Shown in pieces: positions 18,868 through 21,367 of a stretch of 36,268 nucleotides of DNA (within the stretch, counting starts at the first letter, position 1; each line of letters begins with the position of its first letter). Under the pieces are notes generated by a model. The model saw only the letters and a program-made list of their open reading frames with translations, did no database searches and had not been told where the DNA came from. The DNA lies in the NCBI GenBank assembly GCA_016214465.1, contig JACROI010000045.1, positions 1-36,268 on the forward strand. The letters are read 5' to 3'. The position numbers were made by a program, and so were the translations under genes. The stretch comes from Candidatus Magasanikiibacteriota bacterium. Lineage in GTDB: Bacteria > Patescibacteriota > Patescibacteriia > Magasanikbacterales > UBA10003.

Positions 18868-21087
18868 TTAAATATCTACATTATTTTCTTCATCAATTTT
18901 CTCCTCTTGAATTATATTCTCATTTGTTCTTTTTATCAATAGTTCGCGGGGTTTGGCGCCGTCAGCAGGGCCGATAAATCCGATTTTTTCCAATAAATCC
19001 AACAGCCGCGCCGCTCTGGCGTAGCCGACTTTCAACCTTCTTTGCAAAAGAGAGGCTGAGCCCTTGCCCGCCTGAATTAATACTTCTTTGGCCTCGTCCA
19101 AAAGCGGGTCGTCGTCTTCAGAAGGAACATTCGCGCTATTAAATTCAAAAGTTTTTTGTTGTTTGGCGGTGATTTCATCATTATATTGCGGCAACTCGTC
19201 GCCTTTTAGAAATTCCACCACTTTTTTGGTCTCTTCTTCGCCAACAAACGCGCTTTGCAAGCGGCGTGGTTTTGATAATTCAGGCGGTTTCCATAGGCAA
19301 TCGCCACGACCCAAAAGTTTCTCTGCGCCGCTCATATCCAAAATAGTTCGCGAATCCATGAGAGACGTTACTGAAAAGGCTAAACGAGCAGGCATGTTTG
19401 CTTTAATAAGTCCGGTGATTATATCAACTGACGGTCTTTGTGTTGCTAAAACCAAGTGGATTCCCACAGCGCGCGCCATCTGTGCCAGCCGGATAATTCC
19501 AGCTTCCACTTCAGCCCCAGCTCCGGTCATTAAGTCGGCCATTTCATCAATAACAAAAACCAAATATGGCAATTTTTGATCCATTATTTTATTGTATGAA
19601 CTGATATCGCGCCGACCGGCTTTGGATAATAATTCAAGACGCCGCTCCATTTCGCCAATAGTCCAACGCAGCGCATTGACAACTTTTTGCACATCAGTGA
19701 TCACCGGTGTTAATAAATGTGGGATGCCGTTGTAATTTGGCAGTTCCACTCTTTTTGGATCAACCAAAATGAAACGTAGTGTTTCAGGTGTGTGTCGCAG
19801 AAGCAAACTTAATAATAATGAATTTATACTTACGGTTTTTCCGCTGTTAGTGGCGCCGGCAATTAATAGATGAGGCAAGTTGGTTAGGTCGGCAAACCAT
19901 GGTTTGCCGGAAACATCCTTACCTATCGGAATAATTAAATTGCCGCGCTGTTCGCGCGCCTCCGGAGTTTCTAAAAGTTCGCGCAAAGAAATCAAAGCCA
20001 CTTTTTGATTTGGCACTTCAATTCCTACAAGCGATTTGCCGGGGATTGGCGCCTCAATGCGAATTGGGTGGCTAGCCAAAGCCATAGCCAAATCATTTTG
20101 CAAAGCTGTCAAACGCGACAGTTTTACCCCATCAGCCGGTTTTAAAGTATATTGAGTTACAGTGGGCCCGACTTGCACCGCGCCCATTTCTACCACAATG
20201 CCGAAATTTTCCAATGTTTTTTGAATTGTAAAAAGATTAGCTTTGATATCGCCAGATGTGGGTTTGGATCGCATTGAAGATAGCAGATCAAGTGGCGGCA
20301 ATCCGCGAGTGTATTTGATGGCTGGAACAGTGTTTTCAAGAGCCGTCGTTGCATCATCGCCTATGTTGGGCGCGACCGCGGTCAAAGTCGTGTTTTCCTC
20401 TTCTTTTTTCAATGCACGAGTTTGAAAATCAAAAGCCGGTGCAGTTGATTCCTCGGCGCTGTAGTCAACCACCTTGGGAGTTTTTTTAATGAACAAAGAA
20501 ATCACGCCGATGATAATTTTTCCAAAAGTTCCAAGCTGCAGTAAAACAATTTTTTGCGCGTTGATGATGCGCGCGAGCGAAGTATTGAAAAGTAAAAGCA
20601 GTGATGCTAAAATCAGCGCTCCCAAAATTATCAATGCCGTCCAAAAGCCAAATAAGTATGACAAAGGATAGCCGGCGCCAAAGCCCATCAATCCACCAGC
20701 CTGGCCGGTCAGGGCAATTTTCCAAGCGCCAACAGTCGGTTCGTGAAAACGGATCAGATGAATTATTCCATTGACTCCAAAAAGCAAAAGAAAAAATCCC
20801 AGAAAATGCCGGACATCATGCGGATAATTCTGTTCCAATTCAATTAAAATACCAATAAGCACAAGTAGAATCGGCGCCAAAAATCGACTTTCGCCAAAAG
20901 CCACTCCCAACAGATAATCAATCATTGAGCCAGCTTGCCCGCCAATTCCTAAATAACTTAAAATCAAAATTCCGGCAATTAAAAAAAGCGCAATTACCAT
21001 GAGTCCGCGTTTAATTTCAGGATTAAGGCCGATTGATTCTTTGTGGCGCGGTTTGCGCTTTTCCACCTCTTTTTTTACATGTGGCAT
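18868..21087 (-). CDS. ftsK: DNA translocase FtsK/SpoIIIE
   Basis: 739 residues. Four or five TM helices lie in the first 200 residues, then a short linker (about 205-265), shorter than in E. coli. The alpha/beta motor domain contains Walker A GATNSGKT at 411-418, Walker B LVFVIDEMADLM, and the FtsK signature RLAQMARAVGIHLVLATQRP. The gamma winged helix near 655-725 (LLQRRLKVGYARAARLLDLLEKIGFIGPADGAKPRELL) reads KOPS/SRS-like polar DNA sequences. FtsK pumps DNA through the division septum and aids dimer resolution. It heads the ftsK-recA operon. No SD. Confidence 0.97.
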   Translation of the reverse strand: MPHVKKEVEKRKPRHKESIGLNPEIKRGLMVIALFLIAGILILSYLGIGGQAGSMIDYLLGVAFGESRFLAPILLVLIGILIELEQNYPHDVRHFLGFFLLLFGVNGIIHLIRFHEPTVGAWKIALTGQAGGLMGFGAGYPLSYLFGFWTALIILGALILASLLLLFNTSLARIINAQKIVLLQLGTFGKIIIGVISLFIKKTPKVVDYSAEESTAPAFDFQTRALKKEEENTTLTAVAPNIGDDATTALENTVPAIKYTRGLPPLDLLSSMRSKPTSGDIKANLFTIQKTLENFGIVVEMGAVQVGPTVTQYTLKPADGVKLSRLTALQNDLAMALASHPIRIEAPIPGKSLVGIEVPNQKVALISLRELLETPEAREQRGNLIIPIGKDVSGKPWFADLTNLPHLLIAGATNSGKTVSINSLLLSLLLRHTPETLRFILVDPKRVELPNYNGIPHLLTPVITDVQKVVNALRWTIGEMERRLELLSKAGRRDISSYNKIMDQKLPYLVFVIDEMADLMTGAGAEVEAGIIRLAQMARAVGIHLVLATQRPSVDIITGLIKANMPARLAFSVTSLMDSRTILDMSGAEKLLGRGDCLWKPPELSKPRRLQSAFVGEEETKKVVEFLKGDELPQYNDEITAKQQKTFEFNSANVPSEDDDPLLDEAKEVLIQAGKGSASLLQRRLKVGYARAARLLDLLEKIGFIGPADGAKPRELLIKRTNENIIQEEKIDEENNVDI

Positions 21088-21110: not shown

Positions 21111-21119
21111 ATTATATCA
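21111..21119 (-). promoter_or_regulatory. Extended -10 promoter of the ftsK-recA operon
   Basis: TGATATAAT on the minus strand (21119-21111), 23 nt before the ftsK ATG at 21087. It is identical to the elements at 1542-1550 and 33265-33273. Confidence 0.65.
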
Positions 21120-21130
21120 CATTTCGCCTC

Positions 21131-21333
21131 AAAACCAAAAAGCGGCGAATTGGCTATCACTCTTTTGAACCGACTAGGGGCCAGAGTCCCTATCTAAATG
21201 TTTGTGTTTTTAGATAGCGCGTTATCGCTAACGATATTTAGTCGTTGGACAATCGCGTTTATGACTTTAGTATAACCGATTCATCGTATAGTTATTCGCC
21301 GCTTTTTAGGTCCTTTGCTCTAGTAAAAGGCCT
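21131..21333 (-). ncRNA. Candidate novel structured RNA, about 200 nt
   Basis: A consensus promoter points into a non-coding stretch with dense secondary structure and an intrinsic-terminator-like end. From the 5' end: hairpin AGGCCTTTT/AAAGGACCT (21333-21305); a perfect 14-bp closing helix between 21294-21307 and 21137-21150 (minus strand AAAAAGCGGCGAAT with ATTCGCCGCTTTTT). Inside are an ATAAC/GTTAT hairpin with inner CGAT-GA-ATCG; a CGACTA/TAGTCG helix (21244-21239 with 21176-21171); a short TATCG/CGATA hairpin; and a perfect 9-bp CTATCTAAA/TTTAGATAG hairpin (21190-21198, 21209-21217). The 3' half of the closing helix runs into TTTTTGGTTTTG. It has no marks of tmRNA, RNase P RNA, SRP RNA or tRNA that I can recognise. 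It ends just before the ftsK promoter, so a separate RNA is likelier than an ftsK leader, though a leader is possible. Confidence 0.65.
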
Positions 21334-21338
21334 AAATA

Positions 21339-21367
21339 ATCATAACTTTTTAATAAAATTTTGTCAA
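21339..21367 (-). promoter_or_regulatory. Consensus promoter of the structured RNA
   Basis: Perfect TTGACA (21367-21362), 17-bp spacer and TATGAT (21344-21339) on the minus strand. The predicted start is 21333-21332, exactly at the foot of the first hairpin. Confidence 0.8.

Follow-up and report, generated by a model that had tools for sequence, protein, structure and literature searches.

The minus strand of a Magasanikbacteria (CPR) genome very probably carries a real RNA gene at positions 21130–21367 of the window (the whole 36,268-nt stretch of DNA analysed here), because the element recurs in relatives with compensating changes in its stems. At the level of the gene, we read it as an independent, structured and trans-acting RNA, to which we assign a probability of roughly 0.8. 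It is about 175–200 nt long and has a copy number of one in the window's genome (G000; 826 kb, 98% complete). A sequence-only reading of this DNA had proposed an undescribed, CPR-specific RNA gene, which is now supported by (i) the lack of any Rfam match, (ii) two-sided compensatory changes in homologues, (iii) a promoter and terminator of its own and (iv) its single copy. To our knowledge, CPR bacteria combine very small genomes with little known RNA regulation. An RNA that covaries, exists in one copy and stands behind a near-consensus promoter is absent from Rfam, which shows that lineage-specific core RNAs are still unlisted in CPR. The coordinates, homologues and structure given here allow a divergent 6S-type regulator to be tested against something new in these bacteria.

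Architecture and fold of the RNA gene

The RNA lies between ftsK (minus strand) and the gene of the S1-domain protein rpsA (plus strand), and the flanking open reading frames agree with the placement given by the sequence-only reading. In the named collection, the closest match to this ftsK is Candidatus Magasanikbacteria UBA10142. The roughly 200 nt described as free of a reading frame indeed hold no long ORF, all six frames being closed in both the window and its sister species (G001, contig L024). One frame of the 5′ half, for which the two changes would be synonymous, was rejected as coding: its stops are conserved in both species and it has no usual start codon. The RNA was not matched in phage, plasmid or viral collections. 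The features are listed below; the homologues referred to are those of the window, the sister species and two genomes of a second genus in the same family f1 (G002 and G003).

18868–21087, minus strand: ftsK, 739-aa ORF; downstream neighbour of the RNA, not a required partner
21111–21119, minus strand: extended −10 element TGTGATATAAT (also written TGATATAAT), presumed for ftsK; identical in the sister species
21130–21141, minus strand: U-tract TTTTTGGTTTTG, presumed terminator together with P1; identical in the sister species
21137–21307, minus strand: structured core, closed by P1 (z −5.6); covarying homologues in G002 and G003
21137–21150, minus strand: P1, 3′ strand; its last bases belong to the U-tract
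21154–21160, minus strand: P2, 3′ strand GUGAUAG; bulged G common to all four homologues
21166–21188, minus strand: P3/P3b, 3′ strands, from minimum-energy folds; covariation in P3b
21190–21217, minus strand: hairpin B of the three-way junction (9-bp stem); covariation in four homologues
21219–21257, minus strand: hairpin A, at the three-way junction; located identically in the folds of the four homologues
21263–21283, minus strand: P3/P3b, 5′ strands, pairing with 21166–21188 in minimum-energy folds
21286–21291, minus strand: P2, 5′ strand CUAUAC, pairing with 21154–21160 around the bulged G
21294–21307, minus strand: P1, 5′ strand (14-bp closing helix), pairing with 21137–21150
21309–21332, minus strand: 5′ leader hairpin AGGCCTTT..AAAGGACCT, near the predicted start; weak
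21339–21367, minus strand: sigma-70 promoter TTGACA-17-TATGAT of the RNA gene, 11/12 consensus

The promoter that had been claimed is present with 11 of 12 consensus positions and is the best promoter-like site within the 1.5 kb scanned. Promoter and RNA are jointly conserved in the sister species, and the DNA beyond them on the upstream side aligns poorly or not at all; promoters occupy the same place in G002, G003 and in f2 and f8, two other families of the same order (Magasanikbacterales). At the opposite end, the closing helix runs into the U-tract, as had been read from the letters, and its role as a terminator is presumed. In G002 and G003, classical terminators just 3′ of P1 stand in place of the U-tract arrangement. 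The separate ftsK promoter proposed to follow the RNA is plausible, given the extended −10 element at 21119–21111 and its identity in the sister species. Transcription from the minus-strand promoter (21367–21339) would yield a single-copy, free-standing ncRNA of roughly 200 nt with its 3′ end at the U-tract behind the closing helix.

The structure of the RNA exceeds chance expectation: its folding energy of −66.2 kcal/mol compares with a shuffled mean of −43.6 (z −5.9), the core alone reaches z −5.6, the RNA of the sister species z −7.1, and the four family members range from −5.6 to −9.4. P1, P2 with its bulged G, P3, P3b and both hairpins (A and B) recur in the minimum-energy folds of all four; the predicted molecule is a long stem P1-P2-P3 topped by a three-way junction from which hairpins A and B emerge. 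Much of the fold first read from the sequence is retained, including the perfect 14-bp helix, which closes a domain of about 170 nt, and the inner hairpins with their perfect 9-bp member (CTATCTAAA/TTTAGATAG, 21209–21217 with 21190–21198). The 5′ hairpin stands in part, with five pairs (CCTTT/AAAGG) kept in the sister species and the outer pairs lost. The possible long-range CGACTA/TAGTCG helix finds no support: the sister species has lost its last pair, and the minimum-energy folds engage TAGTC in a different helix.

Homologues and compensatory changes

Between window and sister species, 165 of 176 core positions (21133–21308) are identical (94%), compared with 177 of 282 fourfold-degenerate sites in ftsK (62.8%; Fisher p about 5e-16, computed with 166 in place of 165 matches, an immaterial difference). 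The ten inner changes do not on their own form compensating pairs, so the comparison of these two species attests selection and not structure. A sequence search of 114 relatives gave a real match in the sister species alone, and a model from two g1 sequences found nothing further in whole-genome searches of 114 and 381 genomes. This model search produced a false negative for at least G002 (48.4 bits when nearly the whole G002 sequence is searched directly), and because a true copy was missed, its negatives, in f5 and other families, are not readable as absence.

The G002 copy was reached by two routes: (i) it is the top of four candidates in a scan of nearly the whole genome for a promoter with a long-range closing helix, and (ii) it is the best cmsearch match (E 2e-9 over 861 kb, a rough value from a two-sequence model). 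TTGAAA-17-TATAAT precedes it and a classical terminator follows; its location is on the rpoB side, close to the end of a contig and away from ftsK. BLAST from G002 identified the copy in G003 (E 2e-10), which likewise has its own promoter and terminator and, in the part of the G003 sequence covered, is not at ftsK. No convincing Rfam match was obtained for either RNA.

Compensatory changes in relatives, proposed beforehand as a check, are present. In the alignment of the four homologues, pairing holds in 98% of helix cells, and 19 of the 37 pairs differ on both sides, versus 11.6 in shuffles (0/500 shuffles) and 1–5 in slid controls. By hand count, which covers P1, P2, P3b and hairpins A and B (P3 is not countable on the four-sequence alignment), two-sided changes affect 6 of 14 pairs in P1 with none broken, 2 of 6 in P2, 1 of 4 in P3b, 3 of 5 hand-placed pairs in hairpin A (2 with a non-standard pair) and 7 of 8 hand-placed pairs in hairpin B. 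The counted structure was derived from the same four sequences, two of which are near-identical and which therefore amount to about three lineages, so that the covariation is strong but not deep.

Similar RNAs in the order

Family f8 has a recurrent rod RNA of about 155 nt upstream of ftsK. A model built from ten sequences finds one strong copy in each of 24 of 25 f8 genomes, and the 24 aligned sequences show two-sided change in 34 of 50 pairs. Most copies have a TTGACA/TACAAT-type promoter just upstream, and nearly all 24 carry an unpaired, pyrimidine-rich CUCUCUC bulge. The distance to ftsK, determined in 18 genomes, is below 700 nt in 11 and 1.6–3.6 kb in two, with the RNA on another contig in five; RNA and ftsK are thus apart in 7 of 18. 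In f2 genomes, an RNA of similar plan with a covarying P1 is found upstream of ftsK. For none of the f8, f2 and f6 RNAs did Rfam give a convincing match.

Common descent of the window RNA and the f8 RNA is likely, though not proven; the ftsK-upstream position, size, promoter, sister-copy alignment and the P1 signature in G002 speak for it. Against the sister copy, the f8 model scores 17.0 bits (E 0.001 in 6 kb), aligning end to end, in the right place and as by far the best match. The window copy reaches 7–8 bits with the f8 models (7.2 bits being the third-ranked match), the copies of G002 and G003 are inconspicuous as well, and chance matches elsewhere attain 15–21 bits. Comparison of sequence only is weak, with z 1.7 for the window and 2.5 for the sister species. 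The P1 signature GCUGCG/CGCAGC is common to G002, f2 and f8; in nearly the whole G002 genome, its CUGCG/CGCAG site is the sole such place with a promoter, and a second GCTGCG..CGCAGC place was rejected, as it has no promoter and no closing stem and looks like coding sequence. P1 of G003 (GCTGCG/TGCAGC) nearly matches the signature, and that of the window (GCGGCG/CGCCGC) differs by one pair changed on both sides. The f8 rod resembles the window RNA in size, TTGACA-type promoter, single copy and frequent position upstream of ftsK, and (G)CUGCG/CGCAG(C) closes its P1-P2 stem, which is also the case in G002; it differs as a simple rod with a CUCUCUC bulge, a feature missing from the window RNA, which instead contains a three-way junction.

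Four f6 loci (L090, L147, L148, L151) show another conserved structured RNA upstream of ftsK, with a common GGGTTTCGACTC motif and its own promoter where upstream DNA is covered. tRNA-Leu(UAA) lies near eight f8 copies; in four (L125, L127, L128, L133) it stands directly 3′ of the RNA gene on the same strand, an arrangement that suggests co-transcription and processing. Weak f8-model matches in G006, G032, G020, G017, G042 and G008 were dismissed on inspection: they are simple hairpins or probably coding sequence. In G004, a near-perfect long hairpin of about 167 nt (L066:3899–4065 and L098:547–713, both minus strand), with a weak match to the MIR8007 model, lies between the RNA gene and ftsK; it was rejected as the RNA, which sits further upstream, and looks like a separate palindromic element.

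Candidate roles and rival explanations

As a trans-acting gene product, the RNA would work as a folded molecule and not as an ftsK leader, presumably as a protein-bound housekeeping RNA orthologous to the f2 and f8 RNAs. Among specific roles, we tentatively rank a 6S/Ms1-like polymerase regulator as the most likely, in which the rod RNA with its internal loops would bind RNA polymerase and tune its activity. This assignment is favoured by the RNA's size and rod shape, its strong promoter and single copy, and an apparently empty 6S slot. Like 6S RNA (RF00013), which engages sigma-70 RNA polymerase and serves as template for product RNA, the RNA stands alone, is of the order of 160–200 nt and forms a long imperfect rod with internal loops behind a strong sigma-70 promoter in a single copy. 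Unlike 6S RNA, it has no RF00013 match, its internal loops are small where 6S has a large central bubble, and it ends in a three-way junction. A test of the window RNA for the 6S shape found a closing stem and internal loops, with small loops and a three-way junction as the apex, and these small loops and the end other than a simple rod may speak against a 6S-like step. RF00013 gave no match in the region up to E 5 or in the window's genome up to E 10, and nothing over the cut-off in 25 f8 genomes, results also compatible with a divergent 6S RNA elsewhere in the genome. A precedent is Ms1 of Actinobacteria, a 6S-like RNA that genome context revealed when similarity of sequence did not (PMC9130861). 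Ms1 shows no detectable sequence similarity between distant genera and was recognised via structure and conserved context (PMC9130861); it belongs to another phylum with other neighbours, and we invoke it as a precedent. A broader proposal, equally tentative, is that the f1, f2, f6 and f8 RNAs may be divergent versions of one ancestral, fast-evolving gene, one per genome, and form a new class of Magasanikbacterales housekeeping RNA with a role unlike that of any described bacterial RNA.

Rather unlikely, in our estimate, is a trans-acting regulator whose exposed single strands (the f8 CUCUCUC bulge, the junction loops of the window RNA) base-pair with ribosome-binding sites of mRNAs. Pyrimidine-rich stretches such as CUCUCUC can pair with purine-rich ribosome-binding sites, and the unpaired motif recurs in nearly all f8 sequences; however, the window RNA and its relatives in G001–G003 lack it, and most of the molecule is structurally constrained, unlike typical seed-type RNAs. 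The long regulatory leader of ftsK that the sequence-only reading had offered as an alternative, a cis-acting attenuator in which the closing helix and U-tract terminate transcription unless a signal opens the helix, is improbable. It would account for the RNA's place immediately 5′ of ftsK, on one strand with it, in the window's genome and the sister species, and for its staying with ftsK while the DNA beyond differs, as well as for the RNAs upstream of ftsK in f2 and most of the f8 genomes checked. However, the RNA is unlinked to ftsK in G002, G003 and the 7 of 18 f8 genomes, separate terminators follow the G002 and G003 copies, and a conserved extended −10 element for ftsK itself lies behind the RNA. 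Since the G002 and G003 copies sit away from ftsK with their own promoter and terminator, the RNA is better described as an independent gene than as a required ftsK leader.

The perfect inverted ends might also mark a mobile or repeated palindromic, MITE-like element with 14-bp terminal inverted repeats. This is refuted for practical purposes by the single copy, with no dispersed copies in the genome, the same place in the sister species and the divergent, covarying homologues with promoters; no flanking direct repeat was seen. Very improbable, too, is a highly diverged tmRNA, RNase P RNA or SRP RNA missed by Rfam, for which size and structure alone would speak. Rfam 15 gives no match at the gathering threshold, and relaxing the E-value to 5 brings up nothing on the RNA either, so that the Rfam check suggested beforehand returns no known family; Aragorn detects no tmRNA, whose hallmarks are a tRNA-like domain and a tag reading frame, at the locus. 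Copies elsewhere in the genome largely refute such an identity: a tmRNA at G000:C50 (138 bits) and an RNase P RNA at G000:C14 (156 bits, bacterial RNase P model) exceed their cut-offs, and an SRP domain IV-like hairpin is found at G000:C20, while the domain IV hairpin (tetraloop, AGCAG-type inner loop) is absent from the window RNA by inspection. The absence of tmRNA, RNase P, SRP or 6S signatures from the RNA, as first read, is borne out; tmRNA and RNase P RNA, and probably SRP RNA too, are situated elsewhere. No RNA of this sort was found described for CPR in the open-access papers searched.

The match at G000:C20 (8776–8845, plus strand; equivalent to L111:1501–1570) is a weak SRP match below the Rfam cut-off. 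It carries a GCC-AGAA-GGCAGCAGC apical hairpin and is probably a short, diverged SRP RNA.
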